Assembly: GCA_913051705.1 (NCBI GenBank)
Contig: CAJXCW010000009.1
Span: 1 to 45,243, forward strand
Direction: 5' to 3'
Origin: an uncultured bacterium
GTDB taxonomy: Bacteria > JAAXHH01
DNA: 45,243 bases
Shown here one piece after another: positions 23,043 through 39,631 of this stretch. A model generated the notes under the pieces. It did no database searches, was not told the DNA's origin, and saw only the letters and a list, made by a program, of their open reading frames with translations. Within the stretch, counting starts at the first letter, position 1; every line of letters begins with the position of its first letter. A program made the position numbers and the translations under genes.

Positions 23043-23097
23043 AAATTGTTTACACGACCAATTTGCTTTTTACCCATAATTTACCCATTTGATCAAC

Positions 23098-23790
23098 ATG
23101 AACTATCTGACCCGCGGGTTTCAGGAGGCCTTCCGTTTACTGGTAACCGGAGATGCTGGTGTCTATGATATTGTCGGTGTCTCCCTGTTGGTCGCCCTGG
23201 CGTCCACGCTGCTGGCCGCCAGCCTGGGGTTGCCCACAGGGTATGTGCTGGCCACCCGACGTTTTCCTGGACGACGCCTGGTCATCACGGTACTCAACAC
23301 GCTACTGGCTTTGCCTACGGTCGTCGTCGGATTATCCGTGTATGCGATGCTGTCACGGCGGGGGCCGTTTGGTTTTCTTGATCTGTTGTATACCCCCGGC
23401 GCCATGATTACCGGTGAAACGCTACTGGCCATTCCTATCGTGGCGGCTTTTACACTTTCGGCTTTCCGAAGTATCGATCCGCGGGTTACAGATACCGCGT
23501 TGACGCTGGGGGCGACGCCTTTCCAGACGCTCCGTTTGTTGATTTCCGAAGCCCGTTTCGGGATTCTGGCAGCTATCGTCGCCAGCTTCGGCCGCGTGAT
23601 CGCCGAAGTAGGTGCAGCCATGATGCTCGGGGGAAACATCAAAGGCAGCACGCGGACGATGACCACGGCGATTGCCCTCGAAACCAACAAAGGGGAATTC
23701 GGACTGGCCATCGCTCTGGGGTTGATTTTATTGTGTACAGCTTTCGGGGCGAACATCCTGTTTCACTGGCTTCAAGGATTCAGCGACTGA
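23098..23790 (+). CDS. tupB: Tungstate ABC transporter permease TupB-like
   Basis: About 230 residues with five to six membrane helices and the ABC permease EAA-like loop (TLGATPFQTLRLLISEARFGI). The segments ALPTVVVGLSVYAMLSRRGPFG and GRVIAEVGAAMMLGGNIKGSTRTMTTAIALETNKGEF are characteristic of TupB/WtpB-type tungstate permeases. The start is ATG 23098 or TTG 23089; no clear Shine-Dalgarno helps to choose. The stop overlaps the ATPase start by one base (TGATG). The usual partner, binding protein TupA, is not next to it. Confidence 0.85.
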   Translation: MNYLTRGFQEAFRLLVTGDAGVYDIVGVSLLVALASTLLAASLGLPTGYVLATRRFPGRRLVITVLNTLLALPTVVVGLSVYAMLSRRGPFGFLDLLYTPGAMITGETLLAIPIVAAFTLSAFRSIDPRVTDTALTLGATPFQTLRLLISEARFGILAAIVASFGRVIAEVGAAMMLGGNIKGSTRTMTTAIALETNKGEFGLAIALGLILLCTAFGANILFHWLQGFSD

Positions 23791-24806
23791 TGGCAGAGCC
23801 GATTCTACAGGTTGAAAACCTATCGCATCAGTATCAGGACGGATTTAGTTTACAGGTCGAGCATTTCGTCTTATATCCTGGACGGGCGTATGCGCTTACC
23901 GGTCCCAACGGTTCCGGTAAATCTACGCTGTTACATATTCTGGGCCTGTTGACGGCGCCTCATCAAGGACGTTTTACATTCGAAGGGAGGCCGCTTTCGA
24001 TGTCTGACGGCGCAAGCGTGCGGCATTATCGTCGTCAGGTTACGCTGGTCATGCAACCGGCCTATTTATTCCGAACCAGCGTATTTAACAATGTGGCATA
24101 TGGCTTGAGGGTACGCGGCCTGACTGACGACCTGACACAGATCCGCGTCTCTCACGCGCTATCGAAAGTCGGGCTGACAGGTTATGAAACCCGTCATGCG
24201 CACCGATTATCGGGCGGTGAAACGCAGCGCGTGGCTCTGGCCCGAGCTCTGGTTCTGGAGCCGAAGATCCTGCTGCTCGATGAACCCACAGCAAACATCG
24301 ACGTTGATTATGTCGCTCGAATCGAATCCTTTATTGCAGAAACCCGCATGGAACGTCAGATGACGATGGTGGTATCTACCCACCAGGTTGATCAGGCCTA
24401 CCGAATGGCAGACGAGGTGCTGAGCCTGAGAGATGGTCACATGCTAAAAGCAGGGCCGGCCAACCTGTTTCAAGGGGTGATAGAGGCTTCGCCGGAAGGT
24501 CCCAGGGTCCATATAGAAGGTGGCTTCCAGCTATATACGACAGCCTCTCAGCGCGGATTAGCCCATATCCGGATATCGCCGGATGACATTCTCGTCTCTA
24601 AAAATCTTCTGTCTTCAAGCGCTCGGAACTCATTGAAGGGTACGATCTCCAAGGCCTCTGTTGAAGAGGATCGAATTCGTCTGGACTTGGATGCCGGCAT
24701 CCAACTTACCATCCACATTACCCGGCAGTCTTTTGCCGGTTTGAATCTAACCGTAGGCGATGATATATACGCGACGTTTAAAGCTTCGGCCGTGCGGGTC
24801 GTTTAA
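23790..24806 (+). CDS. Tungstate/molybdate ABC transporter ATP-binding protein TupC-like
   Basis: 338-residue ABC ATPase: Walker A TGPNGSGKST, Q-loop LVMQPAYLF, signature LSGGETQRVALARAL, Walker B ILLLDEPTANID. A C-terminal MOP-like domain (about 275-338, LKGTISKASVEEDRIRL) is the kind that binds molybdate or tungstate and regulates transport. Together with the TupB-type permease it predicts tungstate uptake for W- or Mo-cofactor enzymes. The overlapping start gives tight coupling. Tungstate rather than molybdate is inferred from the permease. Confidence 0.87.
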   Translation: MAEPILQVENLSHQYQDGFSLQVEHFVLYPGRAYALTGPNGSGKSTLLHILGLLTAPHQGRFTFEGRPLSMSDGASVRHYRRQVTLVMQPAYLFRTSVFNNVAYGLRVRGLTDDLTQIRVSHALSKVGLTGYETRHAHRLSGGETQRVALARALVLEPKILLLDEPTANIDVDYVARIESFIAETRMERQMTMVVSTHQVDQAYRMADEVLSLRDGHMLKAGPANLFQGVIEASPEGPRVHIEGGFQLYTTASQRGLAHIRISPDDILVSKNLLSSSARNSLKGTISKASVEEDRIRLDLDAGIQLTIHITRQSFAGLNLTVGDDIYATFKASAVRVV

Positions 24807-24844
24807 TTCATTAATGACGTTCAACAACGAACAGGAACATGATC

Positions 24845-25732
24845 ATGAAATTAATGATGGGACAGGATGAACTGGAACTAGGGGGTAAATATCTATCTAC
24901 CCTCAGGGATGCCAACGACCTGATTGACGATATGGACGCCATACATCGTCGCATGGATGAAGACGGCTATCTGTTGATTCGTGGACTGCAGAATACGGAA
25001 AAGGTCAAAGCGGCGAGACAGGTCGTATTGGACAATCTCAAAGCCAATGACCAGCTCGATCTGGATCAACCGGCAGACATCGGTGTCGCGGCCCCGGGAA
25101 AGAAGGGCCGTTTTCTCGGCGGCGCCAAGCAGGTGACGCATACGCCCGAATTTCTCTCTGTGGTCGAATCGCCGGAGATCATGAAGTTCTTCGAAGGATT
25201 TCTGGACGGTCCGGTGTTGACATACGACTATAAATGGCTGAGAGCCGTAGGACCTGGAGACAACACCGGCGCCCATTATGACGTTGTGTACATGGGGCGC
25301 GGCACCAAAAGTTTGTATACGGTATGGACGCCGTTAGGGGAGGTGTCGTATGATATGGGGCCTCTGGTTATCCTTGTCGGCTCTCATCAATTCGATGCGG
25401 TAAAAGAGACGTACGGAAAAATGGACGTAGACAGGGATCATGTGACCGGACATTTTACCAACGAACCGATTGACATGGTGAATCAGTATGGTGGTCAGTG
25501 GCAGACCAGCGAGTTCCATCCGGGTGATGTGATTATCATGGGTATATATACGATGCATGGGTCCTTAAATAATTTAACGAATCGATATCGTATCAGCACC
25601 GACACCCGGTATCAACTGGAAACCGAGCCGGTCGACGAACGCTGGATCGGCCAAGATCCGATAGCCCACTATGCCTGGACGGAAGGGGCGACGGTGTCGA
25701 TGGAAGAGGCGCGCAAGCAATGGGGGGTTTAG
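24845..25732 (+). CDS. Phytanoyl-CoA dioxygenase (PhyH) family protein
   Basis: About 295 residues. Unlike the family member at 3705-4577, the Fe(II) triad is complete: HxD in GAHYDVVYMG (H144, D146) and the distal His in YTMHGSLNNLTNRYR (H238), with R249 for 2-oxoglutarate. The N-terminal MDEDGYLLIRGL is the usual PhyH opening. A non-haem iron hydroxylase of unknown substrate. The start at 24845 has AGGA eight bases before; an ATG at 24839 is too close to it. It follows the tungstate genes by 38 nt and may be read through from them. Confidence 0.88.
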   Translation: MKLMMGQDELELGGKYLSTLRDANDLIDDMDAIHRRMDEDGYLLIRGLQNTEKVKAARQVVLDNLKANDQLDLDQPADIGVAAPGKKGRFLGGAKQVTHTPEFLSVVESPEIMKFFEGFLDGPVLTYDYKWLRAVGPGDNTGAHYDVVYMGRGTKSLYTVWTPLGEVSYDMGPLVILVGSHQFDAVKETYGKMDVDRDHVTGHFTNEPIDMVNQYGGQWQTSEFHPGDVIIMGIYTMHGSLNNLTNRYRISTDTRYQLETEPVDERWIGQDPIAHYAWTEGATVSMEEARKQWGV

Positions 25733-26622: not shown

Positions 26623-29600
26623 ATGCGATCTTTCTATTCCAAACTATCTCTTGGTCTTGTCCTTTTATTACCCTCTATAGCCTGTCAATCGAGCGATATA
26701 CGTACCGGTCCATTTGATATAGAGGATCTGTCAGATATCGGGCAGGTCACATCGATTGTAGATTCGGTCCACATCCGGCAGACCATCACAGACCTGGCCG
26801 GTTTCGGCACGCGTCTGGCCGGTTATCCAGGCGCTACCGAGGCCGCAAATTATCTGGCTGATCGTTTCCGTACTATTGGGCTCGAAAATGTAAAGCTGGA
26901 AGATTTCATAGCATCTGTTCCGCTGGACGAAGGCGGGGCGTTAACGATTCTTGATTCTCCTTCCACCCTACCATCCCTCCAGCCCACCATCCCGCTCTAC
27001 TCCGTCTGGCCCAATCTGGTTCGAACCTCGACTACGCCGCCGGAAGGCATTACAGGCAAGCTATACTATGTCGGCGAAGGCGATTGGGTGGATTTTAACG
27101 ATATCGACCCGACCGGCGCCATCCTTATGATGGATTTCAATTCAGGAATCAACTGGCAGAACGCCGCCAATCTGGGTGCTCGGGCGGTTATTTTCGCTGA
27201 ACCGGATCGTACCACCCGCATTGATGGAGAAGAGAAATATTTGCAGGTGCCGATAAATTTTCCGCGCTTCTGGATGAAGAAAGAACAGGCCAGACCGCTC
27301 ATTGAACATCTGAAGAGCGCCGGTCCGTTGAATGTGCGGGCTAAAGCACGCATGACATGGAAACGTCTGCCGGCCTACAATGTGTTAGGAAAGATCACCG
27401 GCACCCATCCGATTTTGAAGCACGAAGTGATCGTATTGGAGTCCTATTACGATTCCATGTCGCCTGTGCCCGCCGTCTCTCCCGGCGCCAACCAGGCCGC
27501 GGGCGTGGCTACTCTTGTCGAAATGGCCCGATATTTCAAAGCGCATCCTCCGGCACGGACCATCTACTTTCTGGCGACATCGGGTCATTTCCTCTCGCTC
27601 AGTGGGGTGAACGATTTTACCAATCGTCATACGCGTAAAGCCAAATATTTCGCTGAAAAGCTGGAGGAGCCGATCAACATGAAACTGTTTATCGGTCTTG
27701 ATTTATCAAGTGCACGGAATCAGGTCGGTGTGAATTACGCCGGTATCCTCTTTGCCGGAAACTCGTTCGAAAAGCAACGATTCTTTACGCCGTTCGGAAA
27801 AACATTTATGAGGCATGCGGCGGCGCTCAGTCGGTTCGGTGGATTTGCGTCCGACATGCTGATGAATGTGATCACTCCCTCACAAGGTATACTATCCACT
27901 AATTTTTTCCCGGCTGGTGACATTGCGGTAGACGCGGAACTGGTTTTCTGGACCGGCTTTCCGGCGTTGACTTTCGCCACGATTTTCGATGGCAGAGAAT
28001 ATGTAGACACACCGCTGGATATCGTAGACCGTGTCAATATACGTAATGTGTATATGCAGGCGACTTTTTTAACAGGTCTGTTCGCCAAAGGAGTCAATGA
28101 TCCTAACCTGTTTCCGGATTTCAAGATGCAGCTTGACGACCGCTTCGTCAGAGGCCGGATCAAAGTCGTGGAGTTTGATCCAACAGAAAATTATATCCCC
28201 AGCAAACCCAAGCCGGGCGCTGTGGTTCGTTTTCGTCGGTATAATAAAAGCATCAGCGGCGTTAAAAACGAGATATTCATCGTGGCCGATAGTAACGGCG
28301 TAGCGGAAAGCACCGAATTGGAGGCGGGACGCACCTATCCCACAGAGGGATATGTTCTTGATGAAGAATCCGGGGATATCATCTACGCGCCGGATCGAGG
28401 GCCGTATGGCGCAGGCGCTTATCCGCTTGAAATCACGATGGACTGGGTGGATAAGCAGAAGCCGACGGTCGTATTCCGCAGTGAAGCTACCAATATCTAC
28501 GATCTGGTGGACCCGCGATTTTTAACCCGACTCAATGAAGCGGTTCTTCTGGACGAATCCGGCAGTCCCCCACTCGAATGGGGCATGACATTTCAAGACG
28601 GCGGATGGACGTCGGGCAATACCTATGAGGAAGATACGGCCGTGTTGTTTACGCGGCCCGATAGCCGGTTCAAGGTAACCATGTCGACCGGCCTCCTGGG
28701 GCGTCGTCTGATACTGACCAATGCCGATGAAAATAATCCGGAAGGTATCGGTTTTTTATCAGGCCGGCGGGCCATTCCGATGACGTCTTATCAGGTGGCC
28801 TGGGACATGTGGCACCTGGACGAAGCACGCATAAAAGCCCTGGAAAGCGCCGGCGTCCATAGCGACCGGTTGGAATCGTTTCATCTTGAAGCAAAACGGC
28901 TGTTGGAAAAAGCCGATGTGGCCAGGCAGTCTTTGCAATGGGACACCTTTATAAAATACGCTCGGGCAGCATGGGGTTATGAATCCCGGGCCTATCCGGA
29001 CGCGACAGCCACGGCCAATGATGTGATGAAGGGCGTTCTCTTTTACATGTTCCTCGTGATTCCGTTCGCCTATGCCCTGGAACGGCTTCTCTTCGGATAT
29101 GTTAATATTCATAAACGGATCGGTGCAACGGTCGGCATCTTCCTAACCGCATATCTCGTCCTGCGGCTTAGCCATCCTGCTTTTCAGATCAGCGCAGCGC
29201 CCGATATTGTATTACTGGCATTTATTACCCTTACGCTCGCTATTGTCGTCATCTGGCTGATATCCGGACGATTCAGTCAGACGATGCATCAACTCAAACA
29301 AACAAACAGAGGCGTCCACACCACCGATGTACAGAGATCAAGTGCACTCGCTACGGCCTTTACATTGGGCATCGGCAATATGCGTAAAAGAAAAGCCCGG
29401 ACCTTATTGACTTGTTCAACGTTGGTTCTCTTGGTTTTCACTGTCCTGTCGTTTACCTCTGTCCAGACCTATCTCCGGATCCAGAAGGTGAACAAGGACA
29501 CAGAGGCCGGCTATACCGGTTTCCTGGTGCGTAATACGAACTGGGCGCCGTTACAGAAGCAAACCTATCAGTATGTGCTTTCCGAATTCAACTCCTCTGA

Positions 29601-31182
29601 ACCAGAAGATGAAGACATCATCATCGTCCCCCGTTCCTGGTATGCCGCCAGCACGCCGGGCGTAAAAACCTTCATCAAAGTCGAAAAAGAAGATGTTGAT
29701 TCTACGGATCTGGAACAGGGCAGCACGAATCCTGCAAGCCTCAACCCGAAACCTCCACGCTCCACCTACGCCTCGGCCATCCTGGGCGTCCTGCCGGAAG
29801 AACGCGACGTCACCCATATCGACCAGGCTTTGATTACAGGAAGATGGTTTGAGCCACAAGAACGGGATGTGTGTATGATCCCGACGGAGATGGCTGAATT
29901 ACTCGATATCACCTCCGCCGATATAGGCCAGGTTGATATCTATATTTTCGGGCAGCCGTTCAAGGTGATCGGCCTGTTCGATGAACAGGTTTTCGGTACG
30001 ATCATGGACCTGGACGGCGAACCTCTAACGCCGGTCGATTTTACGGCGGCCGGCCAGGAACTGCTTACCCAGCTTGCGGCCAAAGACTACGGGGAGGAAC
30101 CGGTCGACATGGTTCAATTCGATCATCTGCAAGCGGCGAATATGATCCTGGCGCCGCAGTCCTATGTCAATGATCTGGGTGGTTCCTTGCGGTCTGTCGC
30201 CGTTCGTTTTCCCTCGGATGCGATGGCGGATGCACGGATAGAGCGGTTTATGCAGCGGCTTGGGATACCCGTTGTCGCCAGCGTCAGAGGAGAAGTGGCC
30301 GTGTACAGCGCTATGGCCCTCAGTTCACTTTCCGGTGTCGGCAATCTGTTTATTCCGCTGGTGATCGCCGCGCTGATCATTCTGAATACTATGATGAACG
30401 CTGTGTATGAGCGGTTCCGGGAAATCGCTGTGTACAGTGCTGTCGGTCTGGCCCCGGTACACATCGGCACCCTGTTCATGGCTGAAGCATGCATGTATGC
30501 GGTCATCGGCGGCATGGCGGGCTATCTGATCGGCCAGACCGTCGCCCAGGGGATTACCACCTATCACCTTCTTGAGGGGTTGACTCTGAATTATTCCTCC
30601 CTGTCTGCGGTTGCTTCCACGATGATGGTGATGGCCGTCGTACTCCTTTCCACCATCTATCCGGCCAGAAAAGCCTCGCAGATGGCCGTACCGGATGTGA
30701 ACCGGCAATGGTCTTTCCCCGAACCTGATGGCGACCTGTGGAGCTTCGAATTTCCATTTACCATAGGTCGGTTGGAAGCCCTCGGCTTGTATACCTATCT
30801 GACCAGACTGTTCGAATCATACGAAGAAAGTGCCCTGGGGACTTTCATGACCGATGAAGTAAAATTAACGGCCATACAAACCGATGCGGTGGAGACGTAT
30901 ACCATTACTATGAAATCCTGGCTGGCGCCGTACGACATGGGCGTCAGTCAACGCGTGACGTTAAGCGCAGCGCCTGCTGAGATGGAACACAATCTATACG
31001 CGGTATGGGTGGACATCGAGCGGGAGAGCGGGGACGTCGATTCCTGGCAACGCCTCAACCGGCGCTTTCTCAATACCTTACGAAAACAATTCCTGATCTG
31101 GCGTACGGTCGATCAGGGTGTTAAAGATGACTATACGAAAGAGGGACGTATAATATTAGGTGTCGATACGGCTGTAAGATGA
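26623..31182 (+). CDS. Lipoprotein pseudo-M28 peptidase fused to an FtsX-type permease (1519 aa)
   Basis: A very large envelope protein. N terminus: lipoprotein signal with SIAC (C21). Residues about 40-480 have the M28 aminopeptidase fold (PA-like insert, then VIVLESYYDS at 269-278, PGANQAAGVA at 287-296, FLATSGHFLSLSG at 316-328), but metal ligands are lost: the ligand His is Y275, the bridging Asp is N290 and the catalytic Glu pair is HF. Residues about 505-640 look beta-rich. Two or three helices follow at about 800-890, one at 925-948, a periplasmic MacB-like domain, and FtsX helices at about 1240-1355 ending in TIYPARKASQMAVPDV. So a dead peptidase is joined to an ABC permease. No ATPase partner is adjacent. 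Domain identities are well supported; role unknown. Confidence 0.82.
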   Translation: MRSFYSKLSLGLVLLLPSIACQSSDIRTGPFDIEDLSDIGQVTSIVDSVHIRQTITDLAGFGTRLAGYPGATEAANYLADRFRTIGLENVKLEDFIASVPLDEGGALTILDSPSTLPSLQPTIPLYSVWPNLVRTSTTPPEGITGKLYYVGEGDWVDFNDIDPTGAILMMDFNSGINWQNAANLGARAVIFAEPDRTTRIDGEEKYLQVPINFPRFWMKKEQARPLIEHLKSAGPLNVRAKARMTWKRLPAYNVLGKITGTHPILKHEVIVLESYYDSMSPVPAVSPGANQAAGVATLVEMARYFKAHPPARTIYFLATSGHFLSLSGVNDFTNRHTRKAKYFAEKLEEPINMKLFIGLDLSSARNQVGVNYAGILFAGNSFEKQRFFTPFGKTFMRHAAALSRFGGFASDMLMNVITPSQGILSTNFFPAGDIAVDAELVFWTGFPALTFATIFDGREYVDTPLDIVDRVNIRNVYMQATFLTGLFAKGVNDPNLFPDFKMQLDDRFVRGRIKVVEFDPTENYIPSKPKPGAVVRFRRYNKSISGVKNEIFIVADSNGVAESTELEAGRTYPTEGYVLDEESGDIIYAPDRGPYGAGAYPLEITMDWVDKQKPTVVFRSEATNIYDLVDPRFLTRLNEAVLLDESGSPPLEWGMTFQDGGWTSGNTYEEDTAVLFTRPDSRFKVTMSTGLLGRRLILTNADENNPEGIGFLSGRRAIPMTSYQVAWDMWHLDEARIKALESAGVHSDRLESFHLEAKRLLEKADVARQSLQWDTFIKYARAAWGYESRAYPDATATANDVMKGVLFYMFLVIPFAYALERLLFGYVNIHKRIGATVGIFLTAYLVLRLSHPAFQISAAPDIVLLAFITLTLAIVVIWLISGRFSQTMHQLKQTNRGVHTTDVQRSSALATAFTLGIGNMRKRKARTLLTCSTLVLLVFTVLSFTSVQTYLRIQKVNKDTEAGYTGFLVRNTNWAPLQKQTYQYVLSEFNSSEPEDEDIIIVPRSWYAASTPGVKTFIKVEKEDVDSTDLEQGSTNPASLNPKPPRSTYASAILGVLPEERDVTHIDQALITGRWFEPQERDVCMIPTEMAELLDITSADIGQVDIYIFGQPFKVIGLFDEQVFGTIMDLDGEPLTPVDFTAAGQELLTQLAAKDYGEEPVDMVQFDHLQAANMILAPQSYVNDLGGSLRSVAVRFPSDAMADARIERFMQRLGIPVVASVRGEVAVYSAMALSSLSGVGNLFIPLVIAALIILNTMMNAVYERFREIAVYSAVGLAPVHIGTLFMAEACMYAVIGGMAGYLIGQTVAQGITTYHLLEGLTLNYSSLSAVASTMMVMAVVLLSTIYPARKASQMAVPDVNRQWSFPEPDGDLWSFEFPFTIGRLEALGLYTYLTRLFESYEESALGTFMTDEVKLTAIQTDAVETYTITMKSWLAPYDMGVSQRVTLSAAPAEMEHNLYAVWVDIERESGDVDSWQRLNRRFLNTLRKQFLIWRTVDQGVKDDYTKEGRIILGVDTAVR

Positions 31183-37918: not shown

Positions 37919-37924
37919 GTGATC

Positions 37925-39631
37925 ATGTCTCTTCAATCGATTCTTTCCGATTCGTCTGTTGAACGAGCCTGGGACCATCTGCAGTGGATCCAGGAAAATG
38001 CCCCTGTACGGATTAATGGCGCCGGAGATGACCTGCGGGCTGCCGAATACTTCGCGGAACAACTCGATACATACGGTCTGGAAGCGCATCTTGATCAGTT
38101 TACCACCTACCGCAGTGCGCCGCTGCGGGGCGACTTGCGCATACTGACGTCTGAGACGATGGATATCGCCTGTGAGGCTTGCGGCCATATCGTTTCTACC
38201 TCGGATATTGGGATCGAAGCCGACCTGATTTTCGTTGGCCCGGGTGCCCCGGCGGATTATGAGAACAAAGACGTCCGCGGCCGGATTGTATTAACGGATA
38301 TCACCTCAGGACCTGCTCGCCCTGAAAAGGCACGCATTGCGGTCGATCATCAGGCTGCCGGTATCATTTTTATAAATATGGGTCCGCCTGAGCATCATAA
38401 CATTCCGATGGGCGCCATTAAATCGGTCTGGGGGAACCCCACCCGTGCGTCTATGGCCGAAATACCTCAAATACCGGCGATCGGTATTACCCGGGCTGAT
38501 GGGGACAGGCTCAACGCCCTGTGTGGTAGAGGCCGGGTTCACATTCGTATGATCGCCCAGGCCTCACGGGACTGGGGCCCTCTGCCGCAAACCTGGGGAC
38601 GTCTTCAAGGGGGCGCTTCAAATGGAGATGTGCTGATCGTAGGCGGCCATTTCGACGCCTGGGAACCTGGTATGTCGGATAATGCCGCGGGAAACGCGCT
38701 GATTCTGGAACTCGCCGAGCGGATCTATCCCCTGAGAGACCAACTGAAACGCGATATTATATTCGCCTTCTGGAACGGCCATGAGATTGGTGAGATCGCC
38801 GGTTCAACCTGGTTTCTGGATACCCATTGGGACGAGATCGATGAACGAGGCATCGCCTATTTTAATGTGGATTCGGTAGGATTTACCCGTACCAGCCACT
38901 TCGAGACGGCCAGTACGACGGACCTGATCCGGTTTCATCAGGATGTGGAAAGCCGGGTCATTGGCAGCCCGGCACATCGGAAGAAACTCACGCGGGGCAA
39001 CGAGCAACCATTCATTCCGATCGGCCTGCCCTCGCTGGAAGGCAGCTATCGCTACAGCGAACAACAGATTGCGGCGTGGAACGGCGCTGGTGGCGGTTGG
39101 TGGTGGCACAGTACGGCGGACACGCTGGACAAGGTCGATCCCGAACGCTATCGGCAGACCCGAGGGATCTATGCCGGATATATTCTGGAGATGTGCATGC
39201 GGCCCATCTTACCGTTTAACTATGCCGATGTCGCCGAAAATCTGAAAGACCGTATAATGCAGGTAGATCAGCATTATGCGATGGACCTGCGTGTTGATGC
39301 GTTCTGTGACGCGGCTGAATCGCTTATGAATCGAATATCCGACGAGCCGAATCCGGTTGATCCAGACCGGTTCAATCATACGCTGAAACGCCTGAGTCGT
39401 ATTTTGATGCCTGTATTCGAAACCTTCGGTGGACGGTACGACCAGGATCGGGTCGCCCACCCGGCCTTATCCAGCCCGATTCCGATACTGCACGAACTTC
39501 AGGATTATCTTGATCTTCCGGAGGACGACGAACAGCGTCATCTTATGGATACGGAATTACTCCGTGGCAGAAATCAGTTGTCAGATACATTACGCAGAGC
39601 AACAGAAGAGATATATCGAGGGTTAGCATAG
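37925..39631 (+). CDS. M28 family zinc metallopeptidase with PA domain
   Basis: 568 residues, no signal peptide. A PA domain insert (about 75-215, DLIFVGPGAPADYENKDVRG) lies in the M28 fold. The zinc ligands are kept: H242 in VGGHFDAWEPG, D252 in MSDNAAG, E287 in WNGHEIG, D316 in FNVDSVG and H395 in WWWHSTADTLDKVD. The Glu that normally acts as general base, just before E287, is His (GHE instead of GEE), so catalysis may differ. The C-terminal 150 residues are helical. The start is ATG 37925; GTG 37919 is in the same frame. It is an exopeptidase or similar amidohydrolase, probably cytosolic. Confidence 0.87.
   Translation: MSLQSILSDSSVERAWDHLQWIQENAPVRINGAGDDLRAAEYFAEQLDTYGLEAHLDQFTTYRSAPLRGDLRILTSETMDIACEACGHIVSTSDIGIEADLIFVGPGAPADYENKDVRGRIVLTDITSGPARPEKARIAVDHQAAGIIFINMGPPEHHNIPMGAIKSVWGNPTRASMAEIPQIPAIGITRADGDRLNALCGRGRVHIRMIAQASRDWGPLPQTWGRLQGGASNGDVLIVGGHFDAWEPGMSDNAAGNALILELAERIYPLRDQLKRDIIFAFWNGHEIGEIAGSTWFLDTHWDEIDERGIAYFNVDSVGFTRTSHFETASTTDLIRFHQDVESRVIGSPAHRKKLTRGNEQPFIPIGLPSLEGSYRYSEQQIAAWNGAGGGWWWHSTADTLDKVDPERYRQTRGIYAGYILEMCMRPILPFNYADVAENLKDRIMQVDQHYAMDLRVDAFCDAAESLMNRISDEPNPVDPDRFNHTLKRLSRILMPVFETFGGRYDQDRVAHPALSSPIPILHELQDYLDLPEDDEQRHLMDTELLRGRNQLSDTLRRATEEIYRGLA

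Follow-up and report, generated by a model that had tools for sequence, protein, structure and literature searches.

A dead M28 peptidase fold fused to an FtsX-type permease in an uncultured bacterium: a candidate subunit of a Type VII ABC system

We analyzed a 45,243-nucleotide stretch of DNA (the window; contig CAJXCW010000009.1 of assembly GCA_913051705.1) from an uncultured bacterium of the GTDB lineage JAAXHH01, whose draft genome is designated G000 here. At positions 26623-31182 of its plus strand, one open reading frame (ORF) with an ATG start encodes a 1519-amino-acid (aa) fusion of a catalytically dead M28 peptidase fold with an FtsX-type permease. The best reading of the fusion system is an architectural variant of the Type VII (mechanotransmission) ATP-binding cassette (ABC) complex. 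Specifically, with a probability of roughly 0.62, the fusion would be the ectodomain-bearing permease of a MacB/LolCDE/FtsEX-like complex, pairing with a small FtsX protein (mini-FtsX) and a LolD-like ATPase dimer, while the dead M28 domain would act in recognition or as a clamp.

Both parts of the protein were recognized by Pfam, with Peptidase_M28 (PF04389) matching residues 253-367 (E=2.8e-10; 40.7 bits against a cut-off of 21.3) and FtsX (PF02687) residues 1243-1354 (E=2.1e-13; 50.8 bits against a cut-off of 25.5), together with a weak PA domain match at 144-200; no ATPase domain was found by Pfam within the fusion protein. In profile searches against solved structures, the M28 part aligned to 2ek8 (E=1.3e-20), and the best relative of the permease part in the PDB was MacB 5lil (E=3.2e-14), in agreement with an earlier annotation made from the letters of the window alone (the sequence-only reading), which had proposed this combination of domains. 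The region between transmembrane (TM) helices TM1 and TM2 gave a weak alignment of the family profile to MacB, and homologues L110 and L111 alone had a MacB_PCD match above the Pfam cut-off, located directly before the FtsX core. Family-averaged hydropathy placed TM2-4 of the FtsX core near residues 1236-1346, and the coupling-helix invariants R1264, E1267, G1275 and E1288 were retained in the family alignment. The features of the gene, all on the plus strand, are as follows.

26623..31182 (+): coding sequence of the pseudo-M28/FtsX fusion, 1519 aa (ORF, Pfam, full-length homologues)
26623..26685 (+): N-terminal signal with a possible lipobox, Cys21 codon at 26683-26685 (translation, alignment, hydropathy; lipidation predicted)
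26740..28137 (+): PA-like and pseudo-M28 ectodomain, residues 40-505 (Pfam, profile search against solved structures)
29029..29268 (+): three extra predicted TM helices ahead of the FtsX core, residues ~803-882 (family-averaged hydropathy)
29395..29466 (+): FtsX TM1, residues ~925-948 (MacB profile alignment, hydropathy)
29470..30312 (+): putative MacB-like domain in the periplasmic segment separating TM1 from TM2, residues ~950-1230 (weak alignment to MacB 5lil; MacB_PCD in L110/L111)
30349..30684 (+): FtsX C-terminal permease core with coupling-helix motif, residues 1243-1354 (PF02687; invariant residues)
30736..31167 (+): conserved C-terminal domain, residues ~1372-1515, predicted cytosolic, alpha/beta (model pLDDT, the predicted local distance difference test score, about 70-86)

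The C-terminal domain was the sole confident part of the AlphaFold models, which were run on two sequences (the window fusion and L011); a fold search with this domain gave no match at E<=0.001, with sub-threshold START/SRPBCC-like hints only. With regard to the N-terminus, the protein had previously been called a lipoprotein; the possible lipobox residue Cys21 occurs in the window clade and in the paralogue on contig C19, but other clades have an N-terminal hydrophobic anchor without Cys, and lipidation is therefore not a family trait. The ectodomain of some homologues harbors inserts, namely LysM (L111, L112) and F5/8 type C (L110), which suggests contact with the wall or with glycans.

Two alignments were used to assess the peptidase site, a profile alignment with M28 aminopeptidases of solved structure (2ek8, 6hc6 and 1amp relatives) and the family alignment, read in 25 representatives; the zinc ligands and the general base are numbered as in AAP. 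Five of the six M28 catalytic/zinc residues were gone in the window protein, and the zinc ligands, already described as lost in the sequence-only reading, were not intact in the alignment to solved structures either.

27445..27447 (+): Y275, replacing zinc ligand H97 (family and profile alignments)
27493..27495 (+): Q291, at or next to the site where bridging ligand D117 is deleted (family and profile alignments)
27586..27591 (+): H322-F323, replacing general base E151 and ligand E152 (family and profile alignments)
27700..27702 (+): D360, kept counterpart of ligand D179 (family alignment)
27934..27936 (+): A438, replacing ligand H256 (family alignment; second, weak segment aligned to 2ek8)

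One detail of the earlier annotation had to be corrected, since N290, named there as a lost ligand, is one residue off, the D117 position being either Q291 or a one-residue deletion. Across the family, D117, E151 and E152 were lost in all inspected members, with His at the E151 position in all except L114. The H97 position was occupied by Y, F, P or H in other members (His in three clades), and His was found at the H256 position in L050, L061 and L105 among the members shown. D360 was kept in all except L114, and, together with H322 and D277 (the retained counterpart of D99), was nearly invariant; these three residues may serve a structural purpose or indicate a new site for a ligand. Because the general base and two ligands are missing in every clade, this pattern points to an ancestrally dead peptidase.

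The order of the PA and M28 domains is shared with the M28 aminopeptidases (2ek8, YwaD 6hc6, AAP 1amp), which, however, are zinc enzymes without a permease and possess the catalytic residues that the fusion has lost. The same profile search also retrieved transferrin receptor and nicalin, two M28 relatives that are not peptidases. At 37919-39631, the window encodes another M28 homologue, this one unfused, which retains the HFD, SDNAAG and NVDS motifs; by eye, the Glu-Glu pair of active enzymes is replaced in it by His-Glu (NGHEIGE), which may be a naturally occurring E151H substitution.

The distribution of the fusion was surveyed in 384 genomes, 16 from the phylum of the window and 368 others. 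It was present as a single ORF in all 16 phylum genomes examined and in 29 genomes overall, the 13 of 368 outside the phylum representing 11 other families; a thirtieth match (G202) spans an FtsX core only. As the earlier annotation held, this is one fused gene, and the homologues were not encoded as two. Full-length ORFs ranged from about 1460 to 2526 aa (the longest in L113), and the partial copies all stop at contig ends. In two other phyla, the fusion was found in 82 of 85 and in 5 of 5 genomes, respectively. Within G000, full-length paralogues are located on contigs C19 (49%) and C86 (42%), and further pieces on C75 and C105, each running to a contig edge, are probably one gene.

A candidate for the missing ATPase emerged from the loci outside the phylum. 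In nine of these genomes, a LolD-like ATPase gene was found near the fusion, downstream in eight and upstream in L110; the check proposed in the sequence-only reading, whether related ATPases sit beside homologues, had a positive outcome. The genes between fusion and ATPase vary from locus to locus and include those for a PqqD-like protein, a protein of ~310 aa and, in six loci, the mini-FtsX, an FtsX protein of ~215 aa that lacks an ectodomain. In G000, the ATPase, mini-FtsX, PqqD-like and ~310-aa genes lie together on contig C7 in what looks like an operon (about C7:13544-16504; L117:7545-10505), in support of the earlier suggestion that the ATPase is encoded elsewhere in the genome. The C7 ATPase shares 80% identity with that of the out-of-phylum L102 module, compared to 48% for the next-best ATPase of G000, and 13 module ATPases formed one group in the tree (support 99/95), relations beyond which are unsure because of long branches. 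Its score with the LolD model TIGR02211 was 238.3 bits, under the cut-off of 307.75, and by sequence it is LolD-like rather than a LolD equivalog. It is a strong candidate motor for the fusion.

C103 and C163 of G000 also encode LolD-like ATPases; with only 40-48% identity to the L102 module ATPase and a position in the tree apart from the module ATPases, they were rejected as motors, and neither contig gave an FtsX match. A separate LolC/E-like permease is encoded together with a LolD-like ATPase on C59. Directly 5' of the C7 module lies a gene for a PgsA-like CDP-alcohol phosphatidyltransferase (L117:6898-7548), and a similar-looking gene is seen in L119 and L120.

The mini-FtsX was detected in 28 of the 29 genomes with the fusion and in none of the 355 without it; one additional search match (G070) is part of a 415-aa FtsX frame. 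A single copy is present in 15 of the 16 phylum genomes, and all 11 out-of-phylum families agree on the co-occurrence. The ~310-aa family was found in 23 genomes, in every one of which the fusion is present.

In the machine that we propose, the fusion would provide one permease half with its ectodomain and the mini-FtsX the other, bare half, with a dimer of the LolD-like ATPase beneath both. ATP-driven closure on the cytosolic side would then shift the periplasmic stalk and the dead PA/M28 domain, which would recognize or clamp a peptide, protein or lipid ligand. An OPT/DUF6785-like membrane protein would be a frequent partner. A single C7 module would be shared by about four fusion paralogues in G000, which would therefore be exchangeable ectodomain subunits. 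The data themselves establish the architecture, the dead site, the gene linkage in other genomes and the co-occurrence, whereas the pairing of the subunits, their orientation in the membrane, the ATP-driven motion and the role of the ligand are inferred.

This arrangement combines features of several known systems. MacB of the Type VII MacAB-TolC system has the FtsX core and, probably, the TM1-TM2 periplasmic domain in common with the fusion, but is a single ATPase-permease polypeptide acting as a homodimer, whereas the candidate ATPase of the fusion system is separate; the fusion also adds the PA/M28 ectodomain, the three extra predicted TM helices and the conserved C-terminal domain, and scored 25.5 bits with MacB PRK10535, under the cut-off of 966. 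A permease with a separate LolD-like ATPase is found in LolCDE, and NCBIfam lolCE (TIGR02212) was the top hit of the fusion, with 27.9 bits, far under its cut-off of 362.45. FtsEX shares the FtsX-type permease and, if the candidate motor is the right one, the FtsE/LolD-like ATPase but differs in ectodomain, size and partners (FtsX TIGR00439: 19 bits, under the cut-off of 255). YbbAP-TesA and BceAB are likewise Type VII systems with an envelope partner; both permease halves, however, reside on one polypeptide in YbbAP and BceAB, while here they are apparently encoded by two genes, with a fused dead M28 domain as the ectodomain.

As to the M28 domain, transferrin receptor 1 is a membrane protein that employs an M28 fold for binding or assembly. 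The same holds for the membrane protein of the nicalin complex (PMC7505659). Both are eukaryotic and non-ABC proteins, and by analogy with these non-catalytic folds, substrate binding by the pseudo-peptidase may be proposed. The proposed asymmetry between an ectodomain-bearing and a bare half would also have a known precedent in BceB, which has one large periplasmic domain, compared to two in YbbP (PMC12646458).

Several observations weigh against the proposed pairing. In G000, the C7 module adjoins no fusion gene seen, and in L111-L113 the mini-FtsX is located away from the fusion. In the exceptional fusion genome G014 (83% complete), the mini-FtsX was undetected. Furthermore, the co-occurring genomes are related within families, and the counts are not independent. 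In the AlphaFold models, the permease was poor and the ectodomain unusable, with a mean pLDDT of 30. Finally, the fusion could act as a homodimer instead.

Among the alternatives, a Bce-like role, in which the complex would detect peptides or load them for an adjacent OPT/DUF6785-like transporter, is less likely than the proposed machine. In its favor, every out-of-phylum locus read has an OPT/DUF6785-like gene directly 3' of the fusion, such genes also flank several of the paralogues within the phylum, and the PqqD-like protein comes from a peptide-chaperone family. The window paralogue, however, has no such neighbor, and the OPT-like family, which is uncharacterised, accounts for 29 DUF6785 matches in G000, so that the linkage may be loose. 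Somewhat less probable is an FtsEX-like regulator without transport, in which motion of the ectodomain would activate a cell-wall hydrolase or another envelope enzyme and the dead M28 domain would be a docking platform; the FtsX-type fold and the LysM and F5/8 type C inserts would fit this role, but no hydrolase gene recurred beside the fusion in the neighborhoods read, where the recurrent partner was instead the OPT/DUF6785-like transporter. Catalysis by the ectodomain, through an active site rebuilt around H322, D277 and D360, is improbable; the near-invariance of these residues and the His kept at H97 in three clades and at H256 in some members speak for it, yet D117, E151 and E152 are absent from every inspected member. 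An assembly or sequencing artefact joining two genes can be ruled out because, even though G000 is a draft of 405 contigs, the same single ORF is conserved across many independent genomes of several phyla, including 7- and 9-contig assemblies.

The gene neighborhood of the fusion in the window comprises the following upstream genes, which are probably outside the fusion machine.

23089-23790 (+): BPD permease (syntenic neighbor)
23733-24806 (+): tungstate/molybdate-like ATPase, two genes upstream of the fusion (syntenic neighbor; best-scoring family)
24839-25732 (+): PhyH gene (syntenic neighbor)

The ATPase at 23733-24806 was rejected as the motor, since it resembles tungstate/molybdate importer ATPases rather than the LolD type and has its own permease encoded next to it; the claim that no cognate ATPase lies next to the fusion therefore stood. 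Together with the PhyH gene, this ATPase gene is syntenic upstream of window-clade fusions in many phylum genomes. As for DUF6785, 14 control genomes had no match in the PF20581 search that gave the 29 in G000; this transporter-like family, itself uncharacterised, is greatly expanded in G000. In L050, L053, L056, L066, L070 and L078, where a DUF6785 gene flanks the 1522-aa fusion paralogue or one of its relatives, an MMPL-family gene was observed next to that DUF6785 gene.

Taken together, the fusion system appears to be a conserved but undescribed machinery of the cell envelope, shared by several bacterial groups that have been little studied. A literature search on DUF6785, FtsX with M28 and PqqD with FtsX found nothing relevant, and since it left out most subscription journals, the term undescribed is provisional. 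More tentatively, and at somewhat less than even odds, the system may constitute an undescribed Type VII class, near-universal in at least three phyla and made up of a dead-M28 permease half, a shared mini-FtsX/LolD-like/PqqD-like motor, an OPT-like transporter and several exchangeable ectodomain subunits. What appeared as an odd fusion can be placed in a defined system of several genes, for which a candidate motor can be traced. If the proposed assignment is true, it would extend the idea of a dead M28 fold as receptor or scaffold, known from eukaryotic membrane proteins, to a bacterial ABC machine, and would offer a testable case in which one ATPase module serves several permease paralogues.

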